64,000 nt of DNA from Candidatus Melainabacteria bacterium (GTDB lineage Bacteria > Cyanobacteriota > Vampirovibrionia > Obscuribacterales > Obscuribacteraceae): NCBI GenBank assembly GCA_003963305.1, contig RXJR01000006.1, forward strand, positions 62,001 through 126,000, read 5' to 3'. This document shows, in pieces, positions 2,699 to 29,388 of the stretch (position 1 is the first letter of the stretch; every line of letters starts with the position of its first letter). The translations under genes were made by a program, and so were the position numbers. A model generated the notes under the pieces. That model saw only the letters and a program-made list of their open reading frames with translations. It was not told the DNA's origin and made no database searches.

Positions 2699-3884
2699 AA
2701 CCCGACTAAACCTGCCAGCCATTCTTATTGGTCTGTTGATTACAGCGACTAACAATCATGTCTACGCGGCTAACGTGAAAAGCATTCCGTTTCACTGTAG
2801 CGGAGACCAGCGCGTTCCGATGAATTCAGGCTTTACCTATCGGCTTCCTAAAACACTGATTAGTGTCAAAGGAACATTCGGGGTTTATCAGAAGATCACG
2901 TATACGGACAAAACAAAAAGCAGAACGTCTGGTTCGATCACGTACATGTTGGTGCTAACGAAGCCCTTAGAATTAAGCTTTCCGAACGTTGCCGACTACA
3001 AAACACAATTTTTGATCCGTTCAAAAAACTTGCAGTCATTCACCGTAGCAAGTATTGCGGGATTTACATTTTCTGAAGACGGAACAATCAACACAGCGAA
3101 CGCAGACTTCGAAGACAAAACGGGCGAGATAATTAAGGACTCTGCTCAGACAGCAGCGAATGTTGGCGCGATGATTGCAAAAGCAATCGCAGGTAAAGAA
3201 GTAACAGAAATAAAATTGGTTAAAGAGTTTACCCAGGATCTTGGTCCTTATGATCCTGAAACTTTCGCACAGCAGAACGAAACCATTATTACAATTCCCA
3301 TTATCGAAGATACTCCTGCCGATCCTGTGCGCTCGACATTTTTCAGCGCTATCGAAGAGCAAGGCGATGATCCAAACTCTGCCGCGGTATTAAAGAGATT
3401 CTCAACCATAAGTTTGGGGCTGCATATTCCGAAAGCGCAGCCAGAGTCATCAAATGAAATGATGGAACGTCGAAACCATGAATATAAGTCAGAAAACTTA
3501 TTAGCCAATATCCCCTTACTGGAGATACTGCTCAAGCAAAAAAGCTTCGACGGGCTCGTAGTTCGAAATCCGAGGCCGCTAAAGACAACTGTTGCGGTAA
3601 CTTTTGATGCCCAGGCATATTCCGTTTTCAATCGGGAAGTGCCGTTTGCTCAGTACGGAGATATAACGATACTGCCTATGCGCTCGTCGCTATTCGTTCA
3701 TAAAACTCACAAAGTAGCGATGTCCAAAGCGGGAGGAGTAAGCTCTTATGATTTTACTGCCACCAGCAGAGGTGCCACAATTGCTAAGAGCTTAGCTGAT
3801 GCCACCGACTCACTAAACAAAGGATTCGATGCGTTCGCAGGACTTTTTAAATCCCCATCAAGCAAGTCGACGGCAACAAAATGA
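2691..3884 (+). CDS. Secreted protein of unknown function
   Basis: Encodes 397 residues. The N-terminus is a typical Sec signal peptide: positive residues, then a hydrophobic core (PAILIGLLITATNN), ending near VYAA around residue 27, so the protein is probably exported. The middle has an Ala-rich helical stretch around residues 145-165 (TAANVGAMIAKAIAGKEV), and the C-terminus is Ser/Lys-rich. No catalytic motif or family is recognised. The start overlaps the upstream gene by 8 bases, and the stop overlaps the start of the next gene by 4 bases (ATGA), so the three genes form a translationally coupled unit. Function unknown. Confidence 0.72.
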   Translation: MYKTRLNLPAILIGLLITATNNHVYAANVKSIPFHCSGDQRVPMNSGFTYRLPKTLISVKGTFGVYQKITYTDKTKSRTSGSITYMLVLTKPLELSFPNVADYKTQFLIRSKNLQSFTVASIAGFTFSEDGTINTANADFEDKTGEIIKDSAQTAANVGAMIAKAIAGKEVTEIKLVKEFTQDLGPYDPETFAQQNETIITIPIIEDTPADPVRSTFFSAIEEQGDDPNSAAVLKRFSTISLGLHIPKAQPESSNEMMERRNHEYKSENLLANIPLLEILLKQKSFDGLVVRNPRPLKTTVAVTFDAQAYSVFNREVPFAQYGDITILPMRSSLFVHKTHKVAMSKAGGVSSYDFTATSRGATIAKSLADATDSLNKGFDAFAGLFKSPSSKSTATK

Positions 3885-4555
3885 AAACACAACTTTTAAA
3901 AATCCTAAGCATTATCTATCTCCTAGTTATGGCTAGCCCAGCACTATCTGCCGGGCTAGCTTCCGACGCAGGCAAATCGTCAAATGTTCAAGGTCAACTA
4001 CAATCAGACCCGAAACTAATCGGAATAAACCCTTTCTGGAACCAGCCGACTGATGGACGTTTCCAGACAAAACTTGCAGTTCCATCAGGATCAATATTAA
4101 CATTCAAAGTTAGAGCACAAGCCAACTTGTCAGATAGCGATGAGATTTTGGTTCGTTTGATGGATGATAGCAACAACCTTTTGAAAACAGCTGATGGAAA
4201 AGACGCTCAGTGGACCTTTAAGGGTGTAGGGCAAATCGAAAGGGCAATTGTTCCGGAGTCCACTCATCTAATACTTCGAGTCGGCACTGAAGAATGGCTG
4301 GATCCGCACGCGCAAAAACCTGCCTTTCATGACTGGAAAGGTATAGAGGATAGTTATGTTCACGAACAAGAAAACGTTATGTTTGCATGGCATTCGGACG
4401 CCCCCACTCAAGGTCAGGCGCCGCTGCCTGGAACAGACACTGGGATTTCCTCTGGATGGTCCACTCCAGCTAACGATTCAGTCACGGAGAACAAGGCTAA
4501 TCAAACAAGTAGCAAACTTCAGTTTTCCATAAAGGTTATAGGACCAGCCTTTTAA
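3881..4555 (+). CDS. Secreted protein of unknown function
   Basis: Encodes 224 residues beginning with a signal peptide: MKTQLLKIL, a hydrophobic core, then a likely cleavage after ALSAG near residue 24. The mature part (for example LAVPSGSILTFKVRAQA) has the alternating pattern of beta-strands, followed by a Trp- and Asp-containing middle and a Ser/Thr/Asn-rich tail. I do not recognise a family. The ATG overlaps the TGA of the preceding gene in ATGA, so expression is probably coupled to it. A short palindrome spans the stop codon. Confidence 0.7.
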   Translation: MKTQLLKILSIIYLLVMASPALSAGLASDAGKSSNVQGQLQSDPKLIGINPFWNQPTDGRFQTKLAVPSGSILTFKVRAQANLSDSDEILVRLMDDSNNLLKTADGKDAQWTFKGVGQIERAIVPESTHLILRVGTEEWLDPHAQKPAFHDWKGIEDSYVHEQENVMFAWHSDAPTQGQAPLPGTDTGISSGWSTPANDSVTENKANQTSSKLQFSIKVIGPAF

Positions 4556-4561
4556 GGCTGG
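4544..4561. terminator. Short palindrome across a stop codon
   Basis: CCAGCCTTTTAAGGCTGG is an 18-base palindrome containing the TAA stop of the upstream secreted-protein gene. It could help end transcription of the three-gene unit, but it lacks a T-run and has almost no loop, so the call is tentative. Confidence 0.3.
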
Positions 4562-4764
4562 CAAAGGAATCAGACCATTCTAGTTATCCACCAAAGCGCG
4601 CCCAGTAAACAAATGACATCTCCGTTTAGAGCGAGCGGCACTTAAGTGTTGCCATACTGCGGTCAGCAAGCCAGCGCTCCGAAAAATAAAATGAAGCAAT
4701 GGACCGATGCGGTTGATACAAAAACATTGATAAAACCAAACTACAACCAGCGTCCGATGACTCG

Positions 4765-4917
4765 TTAGTCAGCCCCTACCTTACAAGACGCAGCGTGACC
4801 AAGAACTCTTGAACCATCTTTGAGATCGGAAACCTGAGGAGCCCAACCGTCGGCAATATGCCAGGCAAGCAATTCATCAGCATTTGGTTGCCTGTACCAA
4901 ACGGCGACCGCCGTCAA
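4765..4917 (-). CDS. Small ORF, 50 residues, TTG start
   Basis: Reading the minus strand, a TTG at 4917 lies 9 bases after the stop of the 73-residue ORF upstream and is preceded by GTAGGATC, a weak ribosome site. It encodes 50 residues with natural composition, including AVWYRQPNADELLAWHI and GWAPQVSDLKDGSRVLG, ending in TAA. It may be a coupled second small gene, or the displaced C-terminal half of one gene split by a frameshift. No family recognised. Confidence 0.35.
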   Translation of the reverse strand: MTAVAVWYRQPNADELLAWHIADGWAPQVSDLKDGSRVLGHAASCKVGAD

Positions 4918-4926
4918 AGATCCTAC

Positions 4927-5148
4927 TCACGTAGAGCCAAGCACCAAATACTTCTCGCTTTGCGCGAATGGTATCAAGACATCATGCGTGAACTCGTCTT
5001 GCGCGATTACATCCATTGCCGACAATAGAAACGTTTTATTCGTGCGCAAGTATCGAAGGGCACGATCAAGATTTGTGCAAGCGGATAGCGCTGAAGCCAG
5101 CTCAGGGAAAGCTGCTCGCAAAGCCTCGATTCCATCCTGATAAGACAA
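4927..5148 (-). CDS. Small hypothetical protein, 73 residues
   Basis: Starts with TTG at 5148, preceded on the minus strand by GAGGAATTCAAG, a good ribosome site at normal spacing. The product is mostly helical (IEALRAAFPELASALSAC, NLDRALRYLRTNKTFLL) and has no signal peptide or membrane segment. No family recognised. It is followed within 9 bases by a second small ORF on the same strand. Confidence 0.5.
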   Translation of the reverse strand: MSYQDGIEALRAAFPELASALSACTNLDRALRYLRTNKTFLLSAMDVIAQDEFTHDVLIPFAQSEKYLVLGST

Positions 5149-5349
5149 CTTGAATTCCTCACAGCGTTACTAACCTAATCCAATCATCTTTTTGTTGCTT
5201 TCACAATACGCGATATCGAGTATCGTCCTCGCACAGAACTCGCAAAGCAATGTGCTTCTTGTCGATCTGAAGTTTCTTTTACCGTACAATCAAATAAACA
5301 ACCATCATCGAACGCGATCCATTCAACAAGCATCATCGGACCCAATCCA

Positions 5350-6284: not shown

Positions 6285-8021
6285 TTAGGGCTGGTCTTTT
6301 TTCAACGTGGTCTGAATATGCTTCAGTATAGCCTTGGCGCAGGCCGGCATCATTGTGTTCTCATAGTATTTTGGACCACCGAGTAAGTCTCCATTTGTAG
6401 GCGACTTTGAAACTTTCAGTCGATCGATGAAGATAAGATCTTGCCCGGTATCGCCTGATACCACTTTCGCTGAAACATAGGTTGTATATTTGTTTGCCAT
6501 CATGGATGTGGCCCAGTCAGCGGCGTCGATCCAGCCCGTGATTATATATGCAGCCTGAAGTGACTGAGCAAGCTTTTTCCATTCTTCAGGAGTCCACCGG
6601 CGAGTGTCAACTTGATCGGTGCGAGTGAGGTTAGGAATGGTAGATAAAGACATATTTGTCAAACGAGGACCAAGAGCGCGGTCATGGTACTGTGATCGCA
6701 GCGCATAGAACATGCTCTCGGAGAGCCTCGGCGCCAGTCCAGCTAATTCTGCAGCTGAAGACACTTTGCCCCAGAGAACTTTCGCATTTGGCGGTAGTTG
6801 CTGAATTCTGCAAATGAGTGGACCGACAAAGGGCACAACGGCAATATTGGATGGTAGCGCATTTGGTGCAGAAGCAACAAGCGGTGAGGCAGTCGATACG
6901 GCTACAGTATCAGTCTTGCCTGAAGGCGCAGTCGTTGTTGTTGTTGTTTCGGTGACAGTTCCAGTTGTTGCGGTGGCAGTTCCAGTTGTCGCTGTGGCAG
7001 TTCCAGGTTTTGTGGTAGCTGTCGTTGCGATTGGTGATGAAAGTGTGTCGATCGTGGTTGGAGGAAGCTTGTTGACTGGAGGTAATGAAGTGACTAACGC
7101 ATTTGGTTGCTTTTCGGCACCTGCTGGTGTTGACGGTGTTACCGTCCCTGCGAGCTGTCTGGTTGGTGTTACAGCTAAGATTGGCGGCTTACCAACCCAC
7201 GTACTTTTCAGCACAGGAGTCTGTAACACACCACGCTCCTTCAACGCAGTGCGTTGAACGGAAGATTTGAGCGTTTTAAACGCATCAAACAAGCTCAGGT
7301 TCTCGGGTGAATTACTCAAGGTGTCGATAAGGAGTCGCGTGAAAATGCTGTTATGAATATCCTTCATTTCCCACGAGACTTCTTCTGGCAAGCTCGAAGA
7401 CAGGACCACGCGACCTTTTCCCAACGCCAACTGATTTACATCAAAGTTGCTGCGTGACAAGCCCTTACCACCAACCTCGAGGGCACCACTGTGACAGGCG
7501 TCGACTATCAAAATGACGCGAGCGGCATGAATTCGCTTGGATACAACCTCGACTAAATCTTGCATTTCCAGCGCAGTCGTATAGAGATCGTCAGGGTCTG
7601 AGTCATGTGCGAGGATGTAATTGACGCCAGCTGTATCCATGTACGCTGGACTGCCATGACTCGAGATAAAAATCACCACCAGATCATCTGGCGCAGCGAC
7701 GTGCGGAAGCCACTTCCCACCGAGTTCGGAGACGATTTCCTTCTCCGTCGCTTGTTCATCTGTCAATAGTTTCACGTGGTCGGGCGCGAATTGTCCTTTA
7801 GAAATCAAATACTGATAAAAGTCTTGAGCATCTTTCGCAGCCCACCTCAAATTGAGCTTTTCGTTTTTAAATTTGCTCACGCCGACAATCAAGGCCCACT
7901 TGTCAGCAACAGGAGTGTTGTAGGCGTCGTCTTCAAGTGCAAAAGCCGGCCCCACATTCGTGACGCAGAGAAGCAATATGATGACCAGACGAAATGGGCG
8001 TTCGAACACAACATACTCCAT
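6285..8021 (-). CDS. Caspase-like (C14) cysteine protease, secreted
   Basis: Encodes 578 residues. A signal peptide (hydrophobic core LVIILLLCVTNVGPAFA, cleavage near residue 28) precedes a caspase-like p20 domain at about residues 40-280. The catalytic His lies in VIFISSHGSPAYMD (His122) and the catalytic Cys in IVDACHSGA (Cys176), the usual HG and DACHSG motifs. A Pro/Thr linker at about 290-395 includes TAT/TTGT repeats and joins to a C-terminal domain (about 400-578) with a WGKVSSAAELAGLAPRLSE region that I do not recognise. Family knowledge predicts peptide cleavage, often after basic residues. It starts 40 bases downstream of the TPR membrane-protein gene on the same strand and is probably transcribed with it. 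No strong ribosome site is seen at 8021. Confidence 0.88.
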   Translation of the reverse strand: MEYVVFERPFRLVIILLLCVTNVGPAFALEDDAYNTPVADKWALIVGVSKFKNEKLNLRWAAKDAQDFYQYLISKGQFAPDHVKLLTDEQATEKEIVSELGGKWLPHVAAPDDLVVIFISSHGSPAYMDTAGVNYILAHDSDPDDLYTTALEMQDLVEVVSKRIHAARVILIVDACHSGALEVGGKGLSRSNFDVNQLALGKGRVVLSSSLPEEVSWEMKDIHNSIFTRLLIDTLSNSPENLSLFDAFKTLKSSVQRTALKERGVLQTPVLKSTWVGKPPILAVTPTRQLAGTVTPSTPAGAEKQPNALVTSLPPVNKLPPTTIDTLSSPIATTATTKPGTATATTGTATATTGTVTETTTTTTAPSGKTDTVAVSTASPLVASAPNALPSNIAVVPFVGPLICRIQQLPPNAKVLWGKVSSAAELAGLAPRLSESMFYALRSQYHDRALGPRLTNMSLSTIPNLTRTDQVDTRRWTPEEWKKLAQSLQAAYIITGWIDAADWATSMMANKYTTYVSAKVVSGDTGQDLIFIDRLKVSKSPTNGDLLGGPKYYENTMMPACAKAILKHIQTTLKKDQP

Positions 8022-10597: not shown

Positions 10598-11266
10598 ATG
10601 GCAAAGATCCTGACAATCGAAGACGACGCGAATCTGGCCAATTTGGTTCGCTCGTTTCTGCTGGCAGAAAATCATCAGTGTGACGTTCTTCACGACGGGC
10701 GCGAGGCGATGGCGCACGTGAAAGCATATCCATATGACGTCATTATCCTCGACTGGGATTTACCGGCGATGAGCGGCATCGACATTTTGAAGGAATTCCG
10801 CTCCTCAGGCGGCAAAACACCAATCCTGATGCTCACGGGAAAAGACACTGTAGAGCAGAAGGAAACTGGCTTAGACTGTGGCGCCGACGATTATTTGACC
10901 AAGCCATTTGCTATGAAAGAACTCGGCGCCCGCATTCGTTCGCTACTGCGTCGCCCCGCTTTATTGGTAGACACTGCCATCAGCGGTGCAAACATTGTTT
11001 TAGATGCCTCGAAGTATCGAGTCATAAAAAACGGCGAACAAATCACACTCCTTCGTCGCGAGTTTCAATTGCTCGAGTTTTTGATGAGGCATCCAAATCA
11101 ATTGTTCAGCGCAGAAGCTTTGCTCAATCGAGTCTGGCCGACCGAGTCAGACGCAACACTGGAAGCACTGCGCTCGACTATGAAACGACTTCGCAAAAAA
11201 ATTGACCCTGACAGTAAAATTCTTCGTACAGTTCATGGAGTCGGTTACATCTTTGAAGTCGGCTAG
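10598..11266 (+). CDS. OmpR/PhoB-family response regulator
   Basis: Encodes 222 residues: receiver domain (1-120) and winged-helix DNA-binding domain (about 130-222). The acidic pocket is in TIEDD, the phospho-acceptor Asp52 in IILDWDLP, the Thr in LMLTGKD and the Lys in YLTKPF, so the receiver looks functional. The DNA-binding half ends with RLRKKIDPDS and TVHGVGYIFEV, a complete wing. Phosphorylation on Asp52 would switch DNA binding. The downstream kinase gene overlaps its end, and a second kinase gene follows, so this is the obvious target of the unusual kinase pair. A TATTAAAATGAGG element lies about 45 bases upstream and may belong to a promoter. Ribosome site weak. Confidence 0.93.
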   Translation: MAKILTIEDDANLANLVRSFLLAENHQCDVLHDGREAMAHVKAYPYDVIILDWDLPAMSGIDILKEFRSSGGKTPILMLTGKDTVEQKETGLDCGADDYLTKPFAMKELGARIRSLLRRPALLVDTAISGANIVLDASKYRVIKNGEQITLLRREFQLLEFLMRHPNQLFSAEALLNRVWPTESDATLEALRSTMKRLRKKIDPDSKILRTVHGVGYIFEVG

Positions 11267-13145
11267 TTTTAGCACTCCATCACTTTCACTCGCCTGGCAA
11301 GGCACAATCCTCATTGCCGTAATGCTCGCTTTCGAGCTGCTATTCGTCGGGGTTCTCGGCTTGTTGGTGCAGCAAGCAGAAGACGAAGCGACAAGGCAAA
11401 TGAGAGCCCAAGATATAGATACAAAATCATCGCAACTTCTGCTCACCATATACGATACCGGCAACTCAGTCGGAGAATTCACACGAACACTCCAGTTCGG
11501 TGCCACTAAAAGATTCGAATCATCGAAAGTCGAAGTCACGAGCCTTCTTGACGCACTCAAGGAAGATTTGAAAGACGACGAGCATATGCAGCCAGTCCTC
11601 AACAGACTCGAACAAAACATCAAAATTTGTCAACCTGTAATGACACGAATCAAGGAGGAAACTGCTCACCTGGACCGCGAAGAAGCTGCAAATCTCTGGC
11701 GCCAGGGAATGACACAGGTAGTCGCGGGGAAAAAAACTGTCCGGGATCTGGTGGATACCGAACTGATTCCCGACACTACACATCTGATGAGCGAAGCCCG
11801 CAAAATAGAACAAGAAAAACCAGACGTGGAAAGGCGCCACCGAGATCTGGTCAAAACAGCCTTGTTAATTGGACTGGTCATCAACATTCTGTTTGGTATA
11901 GCCGTCGTGCTCTTTTTCACGGGGCGAATTGTGTCGCGGCTCAATGTCTTAGTCGACAACACGAAAAGATTGAAAGAAGGCATGGCGCTGAACCATCAGC
12001 TTGAGGGTCGCGATGAGATAGCGCAAGTAGACGCCGTTTTTCATGAAACGGCTGCGGTACTGCAAAAGGAAGAAAAAATACTGAAGGCAAGTGAAGCGCG
12101 TGTCAGAGCGATAATCGAAAATGTTCCTGTCGGCGTTATGTTGCTAAGCCCAATCGGAACAATCGAATTCACTAACCCAACGCTCCAAAAAACCTTCGGC
12201 TTTGAATCGCACGAATTGCTTGGGAAGAGCGTCACAAAGCTTTTGCCCAGTGAAAAGATTGCGGGTGGCACGCAATTTGTTTCAGAGCTCTCAAAAAAAG
12301 CCCTGGGCCACATAATTGAAATTCAGGCTCAACATCGAGATGGGCATGAGGTGCCAATAGATTTCACCATGGCTGAAGTAACGCTGAGCGCGGGGGGCGA
12401 TGCTCAGATCATGGCGATGACGCTCGATGCTACTGAGCGTTACGAAATCAAAAAACTGAGACAGTCATTCGTACAAATGGTCAGCGAAGAACTGCGAACT
12501 CCGCTCACCAAAGTCTCGGATTTTCTAGGCAAGTTTGGAAGCGGAAAATTCGGCGAAATGCCGGAAAAGGCTGTCGACCAATGTCAGAAGTCCGAACAAA
12601 ACATTGAACGATTGATTACTCTCTTGAACGACCTGTTCGATCTCGAAAAACTCGAGTCAGGCAAAATTGATATCACGAAAGCGCCCGCCTCGCTGCAAGC
12701 AATTTTGGACAAATCTCTCAATGCAGTCTCGATGTTTGCTCAGAAGCACAACGTTACTGTCGAAATTCCGCAAACAGAACTTCAACTCTACGTCGACTCG
12801 AACCGCATCGTTCAGGTTTTGGTGAACCTGCTTTCCAACGCCATCAAGTTCTCACCGGCACAAAGCAAAGTGACAATAGCAGTCAAGCAATCGGACTCTC
12901 AGTTGGAGCTTATGGTAATCGATAAAGGGCGCGGCATCCCCGCCAGTCACATCGGTTCGATGTTTCAAAAGTTTCAGCAAGTCGAGGCCGGTGACGCAAA
13001 GAAGAAGGGCGGAACAGGATTAGGACTCGTCATCTGCCGAGCAATTGTCGAAGAACATGGTGGCACCATCGGTGTCGACAGCGAGGAAGGAAAAGGGAGC
13101 ACCTTCTGGATTCGCCTGCCACAGGAGGCAATCATACGAAGTTAA
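11235..13145 (+). CDS. Histidine kinase paralog lacking the acceptor His
   Basis: About 636 residues from ATG 11235, overlapping the regulator gene by 32 bases. Order: transmembrane helix (GTILIAVMLAFELLFVGVLG), extracytoplasmic four-helix-type sensor, second helix (LIGLVINILFGIAVVLFF), HAMP, PAS (about 285-400), HisKA and HATPase. The HisKA motif normally reads SHELRTP; here it reads MVSEELRTPL, so the phospho-accepting His is Glu418 (codon GAA at 12486). The ATP domain is complete: N-box LLSNAIKF with Asn535, G1 DKGRG at 563-567 and G2 GTGLGL near 593. It should therefore bind and perhaps hydrolyse ATP but cannot phosphorylate itself in the usual way. The next gene is a paralog with the opposite defects. 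Confidence 0.9.
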   Translation: MESVTSLKSASFSTPSLSLAWQGTILIAVMLAFELLFVGVLGLLVQQAEDEATRQMRAQDIDTKSSQLLLTIYDTGNSVGEFTRTLQFGATKRFESSKVEVTSLLDALKEDLKDDEHMQPVLNRLEQNIKICQPVMTRIKEETAHLDREEAANLWRQGMTQVVAGKKTVRDLVDTELIPDTTHLMSEARKIEQEKPDVERRHRDLVKTALLIGLVINILFGIAVVLFFTGRIVSRLNVLVDNTKRLKEGMALNHQLEGRDEIAQVDAVFHETAAVLQKEEKILKASEARVRAIIENVPVGVMLLSPIGTIEFTNPTLQKTFGFESHELLGKSVTKLLPSEKIAGGTQFVSELSKKALGHIIEIQAQHRDGHEVPIDFTMAEVTLSAGGDAQIMAMTLDATERYEIKKLRQSFVQMVSEELRTPLTKVSDFLGKFGSGKFGEMPEKAVDQCQKSEQNIERLITLLNDLFDLEKLESGKIDITKAPASLQAILDKSLNAVSMFAQKHNVTVEIPQTELQLYVDSNRIVQVLVNLLSNAIKFSPAQSKVTIAVKQSDSQLELMVIDKGRGIPASHIGSMFQKFQQVEAGDAKKKGGTGLGLVICRAIVEEHGGTIGVDSEEGKGSTFWIRLPQEAIIRS

Positions 13146-13189
13146 GACTGCCTACCTTCAAACTTGCTCACCAGGGCATCTTCATCGTC

Positions 13190-15028
13190 TTGATTCTTCT
13201 TGGGTTCGAGACGCTTTTCGTTGGAATGAATTGGTACCTGCTATCTGAGACTGAGAAAGAATCGAGAAGAGAAGAGTCCTACAAAGAGATAAGCGCGAAC
13301 TCCAGTCGTCTGCTGCAAATGATATTCGACACTGGTGACGCTGCCGGGAAATTCTCTGTAAATCACCAGGGAAGCGATTTAAACCGGTATGAGGCAAGCC
13401 GTGCCGAGATTCCGAGGATTTTGAGTTGGCTGAAAGATAGACTTCAGAACAGCCCCAGAGAAATAAAGCTGCTAAATCGAATCGACAAAGATGTGCAACT
13501 CGGATTGCAAGTACTGGAAGAAATCAAGAAAGCAGGCGAAGCAGGTGACGAAGAAGCAGCCCAACAAATCGCTTACTTCGCCATGAGAAGATTGCAACCG
13601 CGAATAGACTCGCTTTGCCGCAATCAAATTGCGTTTCAGAAAATACAGCGCGAAAAAATTGCAAAGATGCCCGCTGAACTCAAGAAGCGGCGCGACGATA
13701 CCAGACGACTGCTGGCTGCGGGTCTCGGGGTCAACATTCTCGGCGCAATTCTCCTGGGTGTATTTTTCATTCGAAGCATCACGTCACGCCTCAAGGTCAT
13801 CACTGAAAATTCTGAAAGATTGAGACGAAAGGAAGAACTACGTCCATCTATGAAAGGTGGTGACGAAATTGCCCAACTCGACACGACATTTCACCAAATG
13901 GCTGATTCGTTGCGGGGCGAGGAAGAATTGCTCCGAGCCAGTGAGCAGCAGGTGAAATCGATGATCGAGCAAATGCCCGTCGGTCTCCTCGTCACAAAGG
14001 ACGCAGACATAGAGTTTGCCAACCCGATGGCTGAACAGCTGTTCAAATACTCACGCGGAGAGATAATCGGCAAATCTCTGGGAGATCTGTTCGCCGCGAA
14101 TTCAGAAACAGTCTCGAATTCGGGCTCTAGCTCTAGCTCTAGCTCGAACTCGGGCTCTAGCTCAAGCTCGGGCTCGGCATCATCGCTTGCAAGTTGGCTC
14201 GAAGAGAAGGCTCTCGACCATGTGGTTGAAATGAAAGCATTCAAAAGCAGCGGTGAAGAATTTCCCATCGAATTCTCGATGTCTGATGTTTCACTCGGGC
14301 GCGCTTCAAGACGATTAGCAATGGTGCTTGACGTCACGGAAAGATTTGAAGTTCAGAAAATGAGACGAGAATTTGTAGCGATGGTAAGCCATGAGCTACG
14401 AACGCCACTAAATTCGGTATCAGGCTTTCTGCAACTTTTGCCAGTAGGAGTATTTGGCACCTTGAGCCAGGAAGCCATTGCACAGGCAGGTTACGCCGAA
14501 GAGAACATAAACAACTTGATCGGTCTGATCACTGACCTGCTTGATCTCGAAAAAATGGAAGCTGGAAAGATGGATCTAGCCAGTACGGCATCACTGCTCG
14601 AAGACATCATCGACCAGGCGATCAACGACATCACAGATGCAGCTAATGAGCGTGAAATATCGCCCTACTTCGAAGGGTGCGAAGTCGAAATCAAAGGTGA
14701 TGTGGAGCGATTGCAGCAGTGCATCACAAAAATTCTTTCCTTCATGATTTCGTTCACGCCGACTGGAGCAGCAATAAACATTTCAGCCGGGAAAGAATCC
14801 AACGGGAGCATCAAAATAACAATTTCGAGTCGCCTCCTCACCATTCCAGAGGACTTGCTGACGACAATCTTTGAAAGGTTTCAACAATTAGATTTGCCAG
14901 GCGGGCGGGGCAGCACAGGTCTCGGCTTGCCACTAGCCAAAACTATTGTCGAGCAACATAAAGGCTCAATTCAGGTCACGAGCAACGACAACCACGGCAC
15001 CACTTTCTCAATTCACTTACCCGAATGA
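13190..15028 (+). CDS. Histidine kinase paralog with degenerate ATP domain
   Basis: At least 612 residues, paralogous to the preceding kinase along its whole length: membrane helix, periplasmic helices with IFDTGDAAGKF, second helix (GVNILGAILLGVFF), HAMP, PAS with a Ser-rich insertion, HisKA and HATPase. The phospho-acceptor is present in MVSHELRTPL (His codon at 14390). The ATP domain is damaged: the N-box Asn is Phe (ILSFMISF, codon at 14741) and the G1 DxGxG is SRLLT, while the G2 STGLGL remains. It can probably be phosphorylated but not bind ATP productively. The TTG at 13190 is the first ordinary start, yet similarity to the paralog (KLRLPTFKLAHQG) extends upstream to about 13139; see findings. 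Its stop overlaps the convergent gene by 12 bases. Confidence 0.87.
   Translation: MILLGFETLFVGMNWYLLSETEKESRREESYKEISANSSRLLQMIFDTGDAAGKFSVNHQGSDLNRYEASRAEIPRILSWLKDRLQNSPREIKLLNRIDKDVQLGLQVLEEIKKAGEAGDEEAAQQIAYFAMRRLQPRIDSLCRNQIAFQKIQREKIAKMPAELKKRRDDTRRLLAAGLGVNILGAILLGVFFIRSITSRLKVITENSERLRRKEELRPSMKGGDEIAQLDTTFHQMADSLRGEEELLRASEQQVKSMIEQMPVGLLVTKDADIEFANPMAEQLFKYSRGEIIGKSLGDLFAANSETVSNSGSSSSSSSNSGSSSSSGSASSLASWLEEKALDHVVEMKAFKSSGEEFPIEFSMSDVSLGRASRRLAMVLDVTERFEVQKMRREFVAMVSHELRTPLNSVSGFLQLLPVGVFGTLSQEAIAQAGYAEENINNLIGLITDLLDLEKMEAGKMDLASTASLLEDIIDQAINDITDAANEREISPYFEGCEVEIKGDVERLQQCITKILSFMISFTPTGAAINISAGKESNGSIKITISSRLLTIPEDLLTTIFERFQQLDLPGGRGSTGLGLPLAKTIVEQHKGSIQVTSNDNHGTTFSIHLPE
14121..14176 (+). 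repeat. Coding hexanucleotide (Ser) microsatellite
   Basis: Within the PAS region of the second kinase, imperfect GGCTCT/AGCTCT/AGCTCG hexamers encode a run of Ser with Gly and Asn. The unit is two codons, so gains or losses keep the reading frame. The paralog upstream lacks this insertion. Confidence 0.85.
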
Positions 15029-16347: not shown

Positions 16348-19300
16348 ATGGGCAAAGACAAGCCAAAATCTCACCCACCCGAATCTTCTGACAATATGGT
16401 CACGAGGACCATGAAGTCAACAGTGAAGGCTTTCTCCGGCATCGCCAGGTCAATTTATGGCGACAGCCATGGACCGGCAACAAAATCTGAACACAAATCG
16501 ACCCATGCATCTGAGAAGAGATCGGCAAAGCCAACGGAGTCGTCCAAAGCCAGCGACGGACACGCCAACAAAGGTGACGCACACTCCAGCAAGGGCGTCG
16601 TAAAACCTCAATCCGATGCAAAATCAACGGGGACAAAAGCCACTCAACACCAGGCAGAAATCAGGTCCGACATGAAATCCGCCGAGGGGCGCAAGTCGGT
16701 ACCGAAACACCCAGAGAGCACAACCGAGGCGAAACACGCCACCCAAAAGAATTCCACCGACTCAAAGCACCCCAACCCAAAGAATTCCACCGACTCGAAG
16801 CACCCAGCGACCGAAAAGCCCGCCGAAAAGACCAGCCTTTCCAACTACATTTACCAGCTCAAAGAAAGGGCAAAAACCAATATCACCGAGGAAATCGCAA
16901 AAGTCAAAACAACGGCCAAATTCCTGGAAGACAATCTACACAAGGTTGAAAACACCGCCGCCAAGACTCTCAAGGAAATTTCCGCCCCGCCCAAAGACGC
17001 CCCCCGGGAACCAAAGCCCCTCGCTCTCAATAAAATGACGCCCGAGCAAAGAGTCCGGGCAGGACAATTCGAATACACCGACGAGAAAACAAACGTTAGC
17101 TACAAGTACGACAAGAAAACGGGCAACGTGCAGGAAATGCAGCGGGGCGACACAACCACCCACTTCAAATACGACAAAACAGGCAACGCGGCGAGCATGG
17201 AAGTCAAACAGGGCAATCACATCCTTGCCCAGCTAGACAACAAAGATTCCAGCAAAATCAAAGTCGACCAGGTCACCGGCGCAATCAACGTCGAAGCGGT
17301 CAACAAAGACTCGAAGTCGCACGTTAAAAAAGAGACGACCACCTACCAACCTGACGGCACCGTAACCAACGTCGGCTACGACGCGAACGGACACAGAACC
17401 TCAAAAGTCGGCTTCGCGATGGAAGGCGATCAGCTCTCGCGAAAGTATCGAGTCGACTACGTCTACACACAGGGTGAAAAGGAAAAGCCGGGCGAAGTTT
17501 TCAGCGTGACAAGAAATCTGGAAGAAAAAAATCCAGCCAAACAAGTCGTTGAGAAGTGCTGGTACGACGATCCAAAAAATGTCGAAAAACAAACACCTTC
17601 GATAAAAGAAAAAATCAGCAGCGATCCAGACAACAGCACTAAAGTCACGAGAGCATACAAAGACGGACGCAGCGAAGAACTTCGACTCGATTCGCACGGA
17701 CACACCACCGAGTTTCACGTTCGCAATCCGAAAGGGCACACCGTCAAGTACGAAGTCAAAGACGACAAAATCGTTGGTGCTAAAGTTGACGGCGAAGAAT
17801 TCAAAGACGCCACTGCGCAAGCAAGCGCGCAAAAAGATCTGGCGCGAATGAAGAATCTCTACAACTTCCAAATCAAGGCAGCACAGGCGGAAAAAGTCGA
17901 ACAACCAGTTGGACTCACAGACTACGCGCTTACAGAAAGCAAGACAGGAACAATCGTCCTCGAAACTGACGACGGCATTCACTCATACCACGCGCGATTC
18001 GGCGAAGTCAGAGACAAAAACAAGAATCTCATCGGACACCTGGACAAAGACAACAAGCTAACTCTAGAGAATGGCGTCGACCTGAAAATCGGCAAGCAAC
18101 GAATCAAAGATGGCACATCACTCGATCAAATGGAAGGTTCGTCCTTCTTCGATACACACGACATCTTGAATAATCGTCAGGCAATCGAAAGCAATGGTCC
18201 TGGCAAGAATGGCATGCTACTCAAACCAGACGGTCGACTCGGCGGCATCATCACAAAAAACAATGTGTTTGACGAAACCGGCGAGTACCTCGGAAAGCTT
18301 GACAGCAGCGGCACTCTGACAAAATCAATCGAAAGTGGCAAAGGCAAAATCGACATCAACTCAGAACTTCGCGGATACTCCTTCATCGGCAAGGAGCGAG
18401 GTCAAGATCGAAGATTCATCATGTCGTCCAACATGAGCAATGGCGAAATTTCGCTGGATGATCCGCCCGGAAAACACAAAGTCGAAATGGGGATGATCCT
18501 CGTCAAAGACCAAAACGGCAACATGGTTCAGAAAGGAATCGTGGAAGCACCAAACTTTGCCGGCGGCAAATTAGATGGTGGCAGTATAACTCTATTCAAG
18601 GGCAAAGAGTCTGAAACGAAACCACTTTGCGCATCGAAGGGAACTGTCATAGACCTCGAAATCAAAGGTGAAGGCGCCGTAAAGAGTCAACGAATTCAGG
18701 CTGTCTGTTTGGGAGAGCAAGTTGTCGCTCCAGATCAAAAATCTATAGTGAGCGGAGGATTCTTCGACATTCAAGACGCGAAGGCGCGCGAAAAACAACT
18801 CGTTCGCGACGCAGAGACGAAGTTGAAAGAGAAGGACGACGATGTTGTCGGTCATTGGGCCGGGGGATTTGCACAACTCGGCGGCAAATCCGACTACGAC
18901 GCACTGAAGGAAACAGTCGAACTCACACATCGCAGAAGCGATCAAAAGCTTGCTTCGCTAGATCAAATCGTAAAAGACGGAAAAGTCGATTTGAACTCCC
19001 TCGGCTTTTACAACCGAGAACTGGAGCACCTGACACAAACTCCAAAAACGAAACCAGAACCCAAAAAACATGAAGAACCCAAAACGGTGCTCAAACGCCC
19101 CGACCTCAAAGACAAAGTCATCACAGGAAAAGCAAGAGTCGGAAATGAACTAATCGAATTCAAAGACAATCACGTCATGGTTGATGGAAAATCCGTTGGC
19201 GAAGTCACTCCCGACTATGTCATAAAAATAAAGGGTCGCGCGCCGATAGATCTAAAACAAGAAGATCGCGTGTTGATGGAATTCAAATTCGAAGGACCCG

Positions 19301-22300
19301 GTGCATCCAACGAAACACATCAACTTGTCGGTCTGGGCAGAACAAAAGTCGGACTCAACGGACGAATGTACGAAGGCGGGCTAGTAGACACCAAATCTCT
19401 TACCGCTGAGGCTTCTCAACGACAGGTCGACATGGAGAAAGCCATCAAGGAGTACAAAGATGGCAGACACATCACCTCTGGAGTCAGCAACTACTTGCTG
19501 GGCGACGCTGAAGGCACCATGGATCAACAAGTTGCAACCTTCCGCACGCAGAAGTCCGGTCTGGAAAAGGAATTCCAAACCCTATTCAAAGAAGGATTTA
19601 ATCCTAAGAACCTGGACAACAACCGCGTTGATCAATGCACTAGAGCAACTCAACTAATGATGGAAAACTGTCGCACCACGACAGCCGATGGCACAGAATT
19701 AGTTCAGAGAACAACACAGCTAGAGCAACAAGCCAACGAAGGCTTAATCATGGCTACCACTACGATTGCCACCATGGGAGTGGGCGCAGCATTCAACGGA
19801 CTTGCCAATGCAGGCAAACTGGCAAACTTATCCAGAGTAACTGTTCTCACAACTGAAGTAGGGGCTACCGGTCTCGCCGGCGGTACCATCTCCGTCATTG
19901 GTAGACACACTGAGAAAGGTGGCTGGAACGAAGCATATACAAATCTGGCGTCAGGCACCATGGAGGGTATGGCGAACTCGCTGAATGCCTTCGGAACCAT
20001 GATGAAGGCTCAAGGACTCGGAAAGCTGGGAGTCACCATGAACCAGTTGAGCCAAGCCGAAGTCAATATGGCGAACCTGGCAAAAGCAAGTGTACGAGTA
20101 GAGCAATTGGTAAAAGGTGACATTGAACTTGCTCAAGTGAGCAAGGCTATGGTAACTATTGAGAACCTCAATAAAGCGGGGCTCACAACTAAAGGTCTAG
20201 CCAAAGTTGGTATCACGGCTGAGGAATTGAAATCAGGCGCTGTCAGCATGGAACGACTGATGCAAGCCGGACTCAAAGAGAAGGATCTGGCGAAAGTCTC
20301 CTTCTCGGTAGAGGAACTCGGCAAACACTCCCTCGATCTTCAAAAGGTTCCCGTAGCACTGGAAGAACTGCAACGCTGCGGAGTGCCATTAGAACAGCTG
20401 GCGGCGAAGGGTGTGCAAATCGCTGGACCCGGCGAGAAGATATTTACCACTGCGGATCAGATGTTATTAGACAGCAACTTTGGCCAGCTTTCGACCAAGA
20501 TCGCAAACAATCCAATCGCAAATGCCGTGCTGAAAAATAGTCTGCAACTCGGAGAGGGTGCGGCGCAAACAGCTCTGTATGATTTGGCCGCAGGCGTGAG
20601 AAGTAAGGACGGACTAAACTTGCAAGAATCGTTGGGTCCAGAAAGACTTTTAACGGGAACCCTCTTCAACGTAGGCGCCCAAACGATTGGCAATACAGTC
20701 GGAAACCTTGGCAAATTGTCACAAGAACTCGAAGGTTCCAAAAACAAATTCCTCAGCTTCCTGGGCGAAGAGCGCGCACTCTCTGATATTCAATTTAGAT
20801 CCAAACGCGTCTTCAATGATTTTGCATCGGAGTGTTTCACACAGTTCGCCAGCAGACTCCCCTCCGAAGTCAGCACAGCTTATGCAAACGGCGCCATGTC
20901 GTCAATTAACGATGCAATCAAAAACGAAAAACAAAGAGTAGCTGAAAAACTCGGGCACGCTCCGACCGAGCAAGAACTGTATGAGAACATGAATTACACA
21001 AGAGTGCTTCAGGAGATTCATGAACAGGGAGCTATGGCAGCAGCTTCCAGTCCGCTTATAAGCATTGCAGGAAGCCCTATTCACGCCTGGTCAGAAAAAT
21101 ACGCACCAAAATCGCGCCCGTCCAGCGAATCAGTCGAATCAATTCAGCCGGAACAAAGCACTACAGGTAGTGTTCATGATTCGACAGCAAACCAGTCCTA
21201 CTCAAAGACGGCCCACGACACGATCCCTACCCAACCAGACTCAAAGACGTCCCACGACTCGACACCAAAACATATTGACTCAGCCACGACAAAACCAGAG
21301 ACACCAAAGAGTGTTTCCGACTCGTCACCAGAAGCCCCCGCAACAAAAACTCGAATCGAGCCCGAAAGTCGCGCTGGAATCGAACTTGAAAGTCCCGCTG
21401 TAATTGAGCGGCAACGCCAATCTCTCGAGCAATTAGCCAGCCAACACACTAAAGGATGGAAGCATGAGCACGGCAAGGAACCGGGACTGAAAGTAATCGA
21501 TAAAGAAGGACGAGAACAATCTTTTCTCGAAGCTGTCAAAAAAGCAAGCGACGCGCTCTGCAATAGCGGAGAACCTGGCGACACAAGACCGATTCGCAAA
21601 GACATGCTCCACGAAGTGAACATCGTCAAATCTGCGTTAGCAGACAACCCAGAACAATTGAAAATCTATAACGAGTATGTAGAAAAACGCCAAGCATATG
21701 AAACTTCTGCCAGAGAGCTACACACCGAGTTAGAGTCGCGCAGATCCGATGTACAAAAAATGATCGACGCGTACTGCCGAGAAAATGCTCTTGCGCCAAT
21801 CGAAGTGACGCATAGTCTCGATATCCACACTACAGCAAAAGGCTACCGCAACGGCAAACTTGACATAGCGATGAGCTGGTTGCTGAAGGAACGCCTGAAC
21901 GAAACAGAGCTAAACACTTTACACGCCGAACTCAGGAAAGTCGGACGAGAGAACGAAACAGTTGAATACAAGGTCCGGGCAGCTCAAGCAAAAACCGAAA
22001 GACAACTTGCCGATCTTGAAAAAATCTGCACAGATAACACCAAAAACTGGCGAGAAGTCGGCAATGGAGAAGTAGGACTCGCGGTCATCGACGCAGATGG
22101 ACGATTCAAGATCAGACAGGAGATTACAGAAAAGCTAGTCGACGAGCTATGCCACAAAACAGGCGCAGACGGAAAGCCCATTATCCAGCCAGAGCGCTTC
22201 CACGATATCGACTATGCAAGAACAAAACTAAGTGGCGACCAACTCGCACAGTACGAGAAGTATGTCGAAGCACGCCAGAAACACGAAGATGCAGAGCGAA

Positions 22301-25300
22301 CACTCCGAAGATTACTCGATGAACGACTCAACGTCCTTCAAGCGGTAATGGATCAATATTGTGAGCAAAATCATCAACCTCACGTCACACTGAAACGCAC
22401 TCATCAATTAACGGATACAGGTAAGGAGTACTCAGATGGATCAATCGTCATCGGCAGCCGTGAACTACTAAAATCTGGACCTAGCGACGCCCTTCGTGAA
22501 TTCCTCGTCCGAGAGTCATCAAAAGCCGAATCACGCGCACCAGAATTCGACGCCATACTGAAGGATTTCGATCCCCATCAGCAAAAGATGCGCAAGTCCC
22601 CCGTCGACTACTCATTCCGTCGCATCCACGATTTTCCGAGCGAAGAAGCGAGAGACCGTTTCCTTTACCTGCAAATGAAAGTAGATAAGCACAAAGTTCT
22701 ACAGAGGGAAACGATTCGCAAGTTCGCTGAAAACGTAAAGCAAATCGGAGATAGTTTCACTCCCGTCGACAAAAATCTCAGTCAAGAAGAAAAGCAGGTG
22801 ATCATAAAAGAGCGCTTAGATGCGCTGCGAAAAGCACACATAGAGGCTTTCGGTGAGCCGCCCCCCAGAATCGTAGTGCTGTCAGATCGAGAAATGGCTG
22901 AATCTGGAGCAGATGCAGGCTACCTCAGAGGACGCGGTATAACCCAGCTTCGTGAAAGCGAAATTCTCGGATATAGCTTATTCTCACCCAAACCATTCAT
23001 TCATGAAGGCGTGCACGTCACTCAAGACAGAGCAATTATTCAAGCACTTGCCACAGATCTGATGCGACAAAAGGGCATTGATTCGTTCGACCAACTCAAA
23101 GCGCACGATGGTAGCTGGACGCCCGAAGGCAGAACGTTTTTGGCAGAGTTGCAAAATGAATACAAGTCGCGCACAGCCTTCACTGAATTCGTTCCACTCA
23201 ACGAAAAATTCTTCCAGCAGGCTATGGATTCGTCGCGCAAATATCTGGAAGAATCTGTCAAATTATCCGCCGACGCACTGAACATCGACCCCGAATATGT
23301 GCGCGGAAGTCGATTAGCAAGTGACCTGCACAAGAAAGAACAACGCTCAGCAGAGCGTCAAGCAGATCTCTCCGAAAAGATGCTCAACCTGGCAAGAGCG
23401 CTGACTCCGCGAGACTTAAGCGGCAACGGACTGAGAAATTATTTGAATGAGCTCTTTACTCAGGCACATAGAATTGAAGATGGACCAAATCCACTTGCAG
23501 AGTTCGAAGCCAAAAAGCTGCTGCAAAAGGTTTGCTCAAATCCAATGTTCAGAAACGAATTATTTGGAAATAATCATCACCTTACTGGTGGAATCGGAGA
23601 GTTCAATCGAAAAGACAGACAATTCGAAGACATGCTCTACCGAGCTGTATCTGACAACAACGCACCTGATTTCGTAGCAAACATCGTTGAGGCAGCAATT
23701 CGGAGAAGCGCAAATCCAGGTCTCAATCCAACCGAATCGAGAGAAGTCTGGTTGAGGCAAATGGAAGAGCATCTCAATGATTCGGCCGCAGCACCTTCAA
23801 CTCCAAAAGCATTTAATCGCACCGAGCTGCGCACTTATGCGTTCCTTCTGGAACACTTCAAAAATCCACGCAATGGCTCAATCGGAAGTCTGACCCGACA
23901 ACGATTCGAAGAAGCTCTACCAATTCTGATGAAGGAGCTTGTCAAAGACAGCATAAAAGAAGCAATCATTCACGACCAACTTGTCTATTTCGGCAACCTG
24001 GCTGAGACAGAGACCAGACACACGGATTCACTTGTGGATGAGTGGGCAAAGGGAAGAGGTTCCGGCGAAGAAGCGCCGCTGACTACAAGACAAAAAATGT
24101 ATTCAGACAAACTCGGCAAATTCTGGATGTCTGGAGAGCAGAGCCTCGCATCAGGGCCAAGCACTTCAGATGGTGTCATGAACATGAGGCAGGACAATCC
24201 GCTGCTGCGCATGATGCAGATTCAGCAGATGCAAGAACAACAAAAATATGGCGACCTGAATATGGTTGAGCAAGGTGCAATACCAGACAATTATTACAGA
24301 ACCGAAAACTCGGAAGAACAGGCACGACAATCTAAAAGCCAGCAGACTGACGGAGCCGATTCAAGCACCAGAGACGATAGCAAAGGTAACAACCAAAGCG
24401 AAAAGCGTCTCCAGAACCGGTCAGACGGTCAAAACTACAAAGAGGGCGGCACAGGAGAGAAGTCGCAACTCCCATCGGGAGACGAGTTGGCTGACATGCC
24501 ACAAAAGCCGGCGCAGAGTGTTGGCGACGTGCCTAAGCAGCAATCCACACAGTACCCGCAAGAATATCACGCTCAATTAGAAGCGAACCGGATAAATCGA
24601 CTCAACATACACAGACATCTTTCCAAAGGCAACATTCTGGATCATGTTGCGAAAGCTCAAAATCTCATAGCAGAACTGAGCAACGCACCAGCTGAACTCA
24701 AAACTGCTATTCAGGTTATGGCTCACTCACACGAAAAGGCGCGCATACTCGAACAGGTAGTCAAATATCATGACCCAGCAGCTCTTCCAGAAAAGCTCTC
24801 CGACGCGATTCGCAACGAAGAACAACTGACTTACGCCGAAATGCGTAAGGTTATGATCGATTGTCATCCGTCTGATTTGCAGGTTGGATTGCGCTTGACT
24901 GAAAGAGTTTCCAATCTTTCAGATCCGGAAAAAGTAAGAGAATACTGGAAAGAAGCAGTGCAATCTTACACTCGCATCGATGAAGAGAATCTGTCGAAGG
25001 TCGAACGCGCACAGTATCAGAAACTGGGCACCAGACTGGAATCTGAAATGAGAAAACGTGTTAGCGATATTACCGCTTACCTTGAAGCGCCACAGAATGA
25101 AGGGGCGCGCAAAAACAAACCCACAGACGGATTTGTTGCTAAGCAGGGCTATGCACCCAGGTATAACCCGCAGGACGGACGCGCACAGGAAGTGACTTTC
25201 GCAGCGCGCGCGGCGACAGCACTCAATTCCCGACTACTGTCAGATGTTGTCATAGCAGAGCAACCGCAAGTTCTGTCGAAAGACAAACAGCTCGTCGACA

Positions 25301-27647: not shown

Positions 27648-27744
27648 ACTTAGACGGGGAACTCAACTCCACTAAACGAACATCGCCCAACGCCTCTTTA
27701 CTTCCCGTAGCCGCTCGCTCCGGTTAGTGCTAATCTGTGCTGCC

Positions 27745-29388
27745 ATGGCTAAGGTACTTTTAGTTGAGGACAACCAGGATTTGGCGGGTCTAGTCCGCTC
27801 GATGCTGGAGTTTGAAGATCACACAGTTCATGTCGTCTACACAGGCACAGAAGGTCGTGACAACATTCTCAAGCATCCATATGATTTGATAATTCTCGAC
27901 TGGGATCTCCCTGGACTTTCCGGCATTGAAATTCTCAAAGAGTTTCGTGCTCAGGGCGGCACAACACCAGTTCTGATACTGACAGGACGGCAGTCGTCAG
28001 ATGAGAAGGAAACTGGCCTGGACGAAGGCGCGGACGACTATTTGACCAAGCCTTTCGATATGAAAGAACTCAACGCCAGAATAAGAGCTCAGCTCAGAAG
28101 ATACACAAAAGTCCAGAGCATGAATTCGTTGCTGCTCGGAGACATCGTTTTAGACACGACAAAACAACGCGCAACCAAAAGTGGACGAACAGTCGTTCTT
28201 ACACCCAGAGAGTATCAACTTCTTCAATTCTGCGCAAAATACCCCCATCTGGTTCTCGAATTTCCAGACCTTGTAAAACAAGTCTGGCCAACAAATTCCG
28301 AAACGACATCAGAAGCGTTAGCAGACGCAGCAGAAGAGATGACAGACGCGATCGCCAGGACAACGCTTCGAAGATTGAGAAAGAAACTAGATCCAGAAGG
28401 ACAAATCATTTTTCCGCACATTGTCTCCGTATCTGGTACCACAGCAGCAGAAAAACAAGACCAAACTATCCAATCTGGACAAATAAAAAGTGCCACCACC
28501 TCTGACTCAGAAGAATCAGATTGTGATGATGATGCCGATCCGTTTATCGGCACCATATTTGACCAGAAGTATGAACTTGTAGAACTCCTGGGTGGTGGTG
28601 GAACAGGGCTTGTTTATCGCGCTAAACATTGCACGCTCGGTAATACTGTTGCCGTGAAATTGCTCTATCCGCACCTGAACTTTCGCTCCGAAATCGTGCG
28701 AAGGTTCAGTCAAGAAGCCAGGTCATCCGGCATCCTCTCACACAAGAATGTAATTGAAATCCACGATTTTGGGCAAAACGACATGGGTCAACCATACCTG
28801 GTTATGGAACTTCTGATCGGAACCAGTCTGGGAGAGATGATTAAAAAAGCAGGCAAATTGCGTCTGTCTCAAGCCGCAGACCTTTTCGTTCAAACCTGTA
28901 ATGGTCTTGCGCACGCCCACGAGAAGGGCGTTTTACACAGAGACGTGAAACCCAGCAACTTGATGATTGTGACGGAATCAAATGGTTCCATCACTGTCAA
29001 ATTAGTGGATTTCGGCATGGCAAAACCAACGACCGATCAATCCGTGGAAAGCCTCACGAGAACTGGCGAAGTCTTCGGCAGCCCACCCTACATGAGTCCA
29101 GAGCAATGCCGCGGACTGAAAGTAGACCATCGATCCGACATCTATGCGCTGGGCTGCGTGTTGTACGAGATGCTTACAGGAAAACCACCCTTTCTGGGTG
29201 CGGACGCCCTGCAAACAATCATGTTGCACATAAATGCCGAACCACCGCACCTGAAACTCTCCGACATCCCTGATGAACAAAACATCTTGTTGGACAGAAT
29301 CCTCCAGAAGTGCCTGGAAAAAGACAAAGAGCAGCGCTTTCAAACCGTAGACGAACTAAGAATCAGCTTCGAAGCATTATTTCAATAG
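27745..29388 (+). CDS. Receiver-wHTH-Ser/Thr protein kinase fusion
   Basis: 547 residues from ATG 27745 (MAKVLLVEDN, the usual receiver start; the frame opens at GTG 27727). The receiver (1-120) has VEDN, Asp52 in IILDWDLP, LTGRQ and YLTKPF and closely resembles the regulator at 10.6 kb. A winged-helix-like region (about 128-230) keeps LTPREYQLLQF and RTTLRRLRKKLDP, but has an Ala/Glu-rich insertion before the recognition helix and lacks the usual GxGY wing. After an acidic linker comes an Hanks-type kinase (276-547): glycine loop LGGGGTGLVY, Lys305 in VAVKLL, HRDVKPSN (398-405), DFG at 422-424, and GSPPYMSPEQ. All key catalytic residues are present. It would link Asp phosphorylation to Ser/Thr phosphorylation of partners. 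No adjacent histidine kinase gene. Confidence 0.93.
   Translation: MAKVLLVEDNQDLAGLVRSMLEFEDHTVHVVYTGTEGRDNILKHPYDLIILDWDLPGLSGIEILKEFRAQGGTTPVLILTGRQSSDEKETGLDEGADDYLTKPFDMKELNARIRAQLRRYTKVQSMNSLLLGDIVLDTTKQRATKSGRTVVLTPREYQLLQFCAKYPHLVLEFPDLVKQVWPTNSETTSEALADAAEEMTDAIARTTLRRLRKKLDPEGQIIFPHIVSVSGTTAAEKQDQTIQSGQIKSATTSDSEESDCDDDADPFIGTIFDQKYELVELLGGGGTGLVYRAKHCTLGNTVAVKLLYPHLNFRSEIVRRFSQEARSSGILSHKNVIEIHDFGQNDMGQPYLVMELLIGTSLGEMIKKAGKLRLSQAADLFVQTCNGLAHAHEKGVLHRDVKPSNLMIVTESNGSITVKLVDFGMAKPTTDQSVESLTRTGEVFGSPPYMSPEQCRGLKVDHRSDIYALGCVLYEMLTGKPPFLGADALQTIMLHINAEPPHLKLSDIPDEQNILLDRILQKCLEKDKEQRFQTVDELRISFEALFQ

Follow-up and report, generated by a model that had tools for sequence, protein, structure and literature searches.

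Reciprocal active-site losses in tandem sensor kinase paralogs of Candidatus Obscuribacterales suggest a two-subunit sensor kinase

How could two neighbouring sensor kinases signal when neither has a complete active site of its own? The question is raised by a locus in the 64,000-nucleotide stretch of DNA analysed here (the window). The genome it comes from measures 7.5 Mb, gives 111 HisKA hits and belongs to Candidatus Obscuribacterales, a lineage of non-photosynthetic Cyanobacteriota. On the plus strand, a response regulator gene is followed by the genes of two membrane-type sensor kinases, kinase 1 (HK1) and kinase 2 (HK2). HisKA and HATPase_c domains are found above the Pfam cut-offs and in sensor-kinase order in both proteins. 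Along an alignment of 590 residues the two share 34% identity, and their membrane/CHASE3-like, HAMP and PAS parts correspond, which bears out the claim of an earlier sequence-only reading that they are paralogs along their whole length. Its description of the motifs, with HK1 lacking the phospho-accepting His and HK2 lacking the ATP-site motifs, likewise held when the DNA and the alignments were inspected, so that the catalytic and phospho-accepting residues sit on different chains. Elsewhere in the window, positions 16348-26142 encode a protein of 3264 residues in which nothing is clearly recognisable apart from decapeptide repeats, and a caspase-domain (Peptidase_C14) protein is encoded on the minus strand at 6285-8021.

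HK1 (11235-13145, plus strand) comprises membrane, HAMP, PAS, HisKA and HATPase_c parts. In its H-box, MVSEELRTPL (12477-12506), the phospho-accepting His is replaced by Glu418 (codon GAA, 12486-12488), while the ATP site is intact in the N-box (NLLSNAIKF, 12825-12851), the G1 box (DKGRG, 12921-12935), the G2 box (GTGLGL, 13011-13028) and the F box, and the HATPase_c match scores 109 bits. Among the 14 orthologs described below, the His position is occupied by E, S, T, L, N or Q and never by His, and the usual Thr at +4 is gone from most. Both Asn residues and the Lys of the N-box, the Asp and both Gly of the G1 box, and the G2 box are retained in 14 of 14. A substitute phospho-accepting His was sought and rejected: the only His residues invariant in all 14 are 317 in the PAS domain and 599 in the catalytic domain (counted from 11262), with none in the DHp, and a His one residue ahead of the H-box position in three HK1 copies of genus g13 is not conserved.

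HK2 spans 13190-15028 (plus strand) as an ATG/GTG/TTG open reading frame and has the same architecture. Its H-box, MVSHELRTPL (14381-14410, His at 14390-14392), is intact, and the His and the +4 Thr are present in 14 of 14 orthologs. The ATP site is degenerate. In the N-box, KILSFMISF (14729-14755), the first Asn is Lys (14729-14731) and the second is Phe (14741-14743), and in the G1 box, SRLLT (14828-14842), the Asp is missing; both Asn residues and the Asp are absent from all 14 orthologs. The first N-box Asn is Lys or Arg in every one of these, a fixed replacement rather than random decay, and the new residue may fill the empty ATP site. The G2 box (STGLGL, 14912-14929) and the F-box are largely retained. 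In AF2 single-chain models the catalytic domains are folded, that of HK2 with good confidence, and the nearest solved structures are VicK/WalK and HK853. Given the confident predicted fold and its matches to kinase cores in the PDB, the HK2 catalytic domain has probably been retained for structure or signalling. A Ser/Gly-rich low-complexity insert occupies 14110-14200 in the PAS region of HK2 and is absent from the three orthologs aligned.

The first conventional start codon of HK2 is the TTG at 13190, and a start there would cut into the first membrane helix. Upstream lie a good Shine-Dalgarno sequence, aggagg (13122-13127), and an in-frame ACG (13136), at the place where most relatives have an ATG or GTG that overlaps or abuts the HK1 stop codon. 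The true start is probably upstream of 13190, in the 13122-13138 region, where the ACG would be either an uncommon start codon or an error of the assembly. That the two genes overlap or directly adjoin in most loci supports co-production of the two proteins.

Orthologs were sought in 50 genomes of the family and then in the regions around the matches; the evidence comes from metagenome assemblies of Obscuribacterales. The tandem pair was found in four genera, namely g1 (all three genomes), g13, g36 and g11, and 14 complete HK1/HK2 pairs from 12 genomes were available; two g13 genomes carry two complete pairs each, and the second copy of a third g13 genome is cut by a contig end. When these pairs were checked for the His and the N-box and G1 residues in both genes, the active-site split proved reciprocal in 14 of 14, with the phospho-accepting His and the full ATP-site motifs never in one chain. 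The sequence-only reading thereby withstood one of the refuting checks it had set itself. The losses recur identically in independent assemblies, which makes a sequencing error very unlikely. In g37, G018, G022, G063 and G006 one intact kinase stands in place of the pair, beside a related regulator.

Complementarity was also assessed without preselecting catalytic residues, over the 58 alignment positions that are invariant in 17 single kinases, a position being scored as lost when kept in at most 3 of the 14 orthologs. The positions lost in HK1 (numbered from 11262) are M263, S408, H409, L459 and F571, all of which are kept in 14 of 14 HK2 sequences. Those lost in HK2 are R450, V519, N522, N526, A527, K529, D554, G556, G558, V574, G583, G584, I591 and F615, and each is kept in 14 of 14 HK1 sequences except A527 (13 of 14). 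F617 is the sole position that has decayed in both. The HK1 changes at two of these positions are fixed, L459F and, near the HAMP domain, M263 to T, S or A.

The response regulator gene (10598-11266, plus strand) lies directly upstream of HK1 and overlaps it, encodes a REC domain and an OmpR-type winged-helix domain (Trans_reg_C, by Pfam), and is the presumed phosphate acceptor, its REC residues being intact in the alignment. It is 64-67% identical to the regulator beside the single intact kinases of g37, and 52-67% identical when those of G018, G022, G063 and G006 are included. The statement that the pair sits behind one intact response regulator gene applies to the window and to genus g36, where a REC and winged-helix regulator precedes HK1, but it fails for G001 and G002 (g1), g13 and g11. 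In these, where the stretch examined reaches, the adjoining regulator is on the opposite strand and divergent, and the member tested is a fusion of REC, winged-helix and Ser/Thr-kinase domains. The partner regulator has therefore likely changed. A further REC and winged-helix regulator fused to a Ser/Thr protein kinase domain is encoded in the window at 27727-29388, and another at 3700-5295 of locus L031.

In a tree of 47 full-length kinases, built by a quick method, HK1 and HK2 each form one fully supported clade. The two clades branch in a similar way and are sisters (support 85), and the single kinases lie outside them. One tandem duplication of the kinase gene followed by complementary loss explains this topology, with the intact single kinases as outgroup. 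In g13 the pair was later duplicated as a unit. Where dN/dS could be estimated for close pairs it ranges from 0.01 to 0.28, so that both HK1 and HK2 are under purifying selection, and for the dead catalytic domain of HK2 it is 0.04-0.17 (close pairs). Over all species pairs, the median ratio of catalytic to DHp distance is 0.81 for HK1 and 2.18 for HK2, with the larger ratio in HK2 for 88 of 91 pairs, which indicates that in each protein the constraint falls on the half that is still active. The HK1 DHp is more conserved than the HK1 sensor part, although it is unusable as an acceptor.

The same pattern recurs in other kinases of this genome. A census covered the 105 cores with HisKA and catalytic domains that were extracted from the genome regions examined. 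All tested motifs are present in 90 of them, and six lack the His with the N-box and G1 box intact. In five of these six cases a core that has the His and a damaged ATP site lies alongside or in the same polypeptide, a number of complementary neighbours reached in 0 of 200,000 label shuffles (an approximate figure, with cores treated as independent). Besides the window pair, the cases comprise a tandem pair in reverse order with His changed to Asp (C36:114276-117850, L055), conserved in G001 and G002 (L306, L307); a 1023-residue single protein with two cores (C24:157392-160463), which is conserved in G001 and, in two copies, in G002, the His being replaced by D, N, Q and Q; a second double-core protein (C24:167079-170165); and a convergent pair (C36:48768/50917, spanning C36:48768-53073, L081), conserved in G001 (L312), in which one kinase has His changed to Asp with an intact ATP site and the other has the His with an ATP domain that Pfam no longer recognises. 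In the double-core proteins (L089, L128, L300) core 1 lacks the His and has an intact ATP site and core 2 has the His and a damaged ATP site, the damage to the second core being milder in the two proteins of G002. The exception among the six (C11:173649-177128, L091), a His-less core with no ATP-dead partner, belongs to a hybrid kinase that also has receiver domains and an HPt; of its two cores, core 1 has His changed to Thr with an intact ATP site and core 2 is intact. The closest paralogs of the C36:114276-117850 pair are coupled tandem pairs that overlap by a few bases and in which both kinases are intact (L308, L309 and others); these look like an intermediate stage. In a tree of the cores, the His-less state must have changed at least four times to satisfy the starred branches, which points to at least four origins of the complementary pattern in this lineage.

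We consider it probable, at roughly 70%, that the two genes together specify a sensor kinase with two obligatory subunits, in which HK1 would phosphorylate HK2 in trans and HK2 would pass the phosphate to the regulator. The sequence-only reading had proposed the same obligate heterodimer, which comparative evidence supports well (complementarity in 14 of 14 pairs, purifying selection and recurrence elsewhere). The scheme starts from an operon of a single regulator and a single kinase, in which the kinase gene was duplicated in tandem; HK1 then lost its phospho-accepting His, together with the +4 Thr in most relatives, and HK2 its ATP site. As complementary halves are lost in every relative found to have the pair, HK1 and HK2 probably work only as a mixed dimer. 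HK1 having the sole ATP site and HK2 the sole His, phosphate has to pass from one subunit to the other. In the simplest arrangement the HK1 catalytic domain would bind ATP and phosphorylate the HK2 His across a DHp-DHp heterodimer. A conserved HK1 DHp with fixed asymmetric changes is as expected for an asymmetric dimer. The HE/DxxT motif is tied to the phosphatase role, and since it is kept in HK2 (the +4 Thr) and lost in most HK1 sequences, HK2 would be the likelier phosphatase. The outcome would be one hemi-phosphorylated kinase fed by two diverged sensor modules. A weak point is that a DHp heterodimer of this kind needs trans phosphorylation, yet cis phosphorylation is the mode of HK853 and the like among the structurally solved relatives. 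It also counts against the proposed heterodimer that HK2 of the window has no conventional start codon at the expected place, that the adjoining regulator is of another type in most relatives, and that the HK2 catalytic domain, being under purifying selection, may have another role.

The split of the active site does not by itself demand a mixed dimer. A homodimer of HK1 could phosphorylate a homodimer of HK2 from outside, as an enzyme acts on its substrate; this requires just the same split, and phosphotransfer between kinases is known, for example from LadS to GacS (PMC12189002). We regard it as unlikely, since the HK1 DHp is strongly conserved with fixed changes, and the single-chain double-core versions together with translational coupling favour a fixed 1:1 assembly. 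Alternatively, no phosphate would flow between the two proteins at all, HK1 acting as an ATP-binding allosteric sensor and HK2 as a phosphatase of the regulator, or a sink, with phosphate from elsewhere. Such an arrangement would fit the +4 Thr of the phosphatase motif in HK2 and the pseudokinase partners DivL and evolved ChrS, which act without phosphotransfer of their own (PMC9491836). It leaves unexplained, however, both the full retention of the ATP site in HK1 alongside the lost His and the complementary losses at no fewer than four independent origins, and we judge it distinctly improbable.

The sequence-only reading had further suggested that Glu418 may mimic phospho-His, so that HK1 could hold a fixed signalling state. 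The residue is acidic in this genome, as are those at the same place in four of the five other His-less cores there (Asp or Glu), but S, T, L, N or Q is found there in orthologs, and selection is therefore not maintaining an acidic residue at this position. A phosphomimic was accordingly discarded as a conserved function, and we hold the fixed-state account to be very improbable. Virtually no weight is given to the possibility that the locus is a product of decay or misassembly, with one or both genes being pseudogenes. The missing ATG or GTG at the expected HK2 start would fit such an origin; against it, the same losses occur in 14 loci from independent assemblies with frames open throughout, dN/dS is well under 1, and the HK2 catalytic domain is predicted to be folded. 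Sequencing or assembly error was rejected on the first of these grounds and pseudogene decay on the dN/dS values and open frames.

Beyond this locus, we lean slightly towards a more general reading, that homodimeric kinases of Obscuribacterales have become obligate asymmetric heterodimers on at least four occasions, single-chain double-core forms included, by complementary decay after duplication. They would constitute a class of one-way, two-input kinases, with the intact coupled tandem pairs as surviving intermediates. Since complementary mutants are here fixed as genes, and both single kinases and coupled pairs in the intact state are available as outgroups, direct tests become possible of the transition from homodimer to heterodimer, of the direction in which phosphate is transferred and of what a kinase gains from having two sensors. 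PMC11066126 asks whether it is mutational bias or selection that makes heteromers replace homomers, and the repeated origin is relevant to that question. The proteins are also split kinases that could be taken as they are for the design of signalling systems.

Split kinases and pseudokinase partners are already known. Searches of the open-licence literature turned up no account of full-length paralogs in tandem whose active sites show conserved reciprocal loss, nor of a repeated origin or of single-chain versions. Rv0600c and Rv0601c of Mycobacterium tuberculosis derive from a gene split into domains and are not two full-length paralogs. They cooperate with TcrA (PMC9274095), one regulator being served by two proteins of kinase origin, as is proposed for the present locus. 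Pseudo-histidine kinases such as DivL resemble HK1 in that the phospho-accepting His is replaced; DivL modulates the intact kinase CckA and needs neither its own ATPase nor its phosphorylation site (cited in PMC9491836), whereas HK1 has an ATP-dead adjacent partner in HK2 and an invariant ATP site.

The split chemotaxis kinase CheA3/CheA4 of Rhodobacter sphaeroides, of which neither protein autophosphorylates alone (PMC3591291), likewise has the catalytic and phospho-accepting roles on separate proteins, an arrangement deduced from the residues in our case. It is a cytoplasmic chemotaxis system of the CheA class, with whole domains missing and the acceptor on a mobile P1 domain, whereas HK1 and HK2 are full-length, membrane-type proteins inactivated residue by residue, and Pfam finds PAS, HAMP, HisKA and HATPase_c but no CheA or Hpt domain in either. 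One estimate puts the share of kinases that may be both split and bifunctional at up to 1.7%, and ultrasensitive or bistable responses are predicted for split kinases (PMC3591291). The nearest known case is FasB/FasC of Streptococcus pyogenes, for which a heterodimer and no homodimers were seen by two-hybrid analysis, the FasB ATP domain is proposed to phosphorylate His246 of FasC, and FasC, with a dispensable kinase domain, is a proposed pseudokinase (PMC12675982, 2025). There too, two adjacent kinase genes accompany one regulator and the catalytic domain of one partner is inactive. FasB/FasC differ in that six transmembrane segments are predicted and the regulator is ComE-like, in place of the HisKA class, HAMP/PAS and winged-helix regulator found here, and their reciprocity is incomplete, as FasB keeps candidate phospho-His residues, whereas here it extends to 14 loci and is recurrent.

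Sensor kinases are textbook homodimers, and autophosphorylation in trans or in cis was worked out with engineered complementing mutants. In the case of EnvZ, an H243A mutant and a G2-box mutant form a mixed dimer that regains trans phosphorylation in vitro (PMC4734776). These are the same two complementary lesions as in HK1 and HK2; those of EnvZ are laboratory mutants of one gene, whereas the pair described here is a natural version of that classic experiment, fixed as two separate, co-inherited genes.
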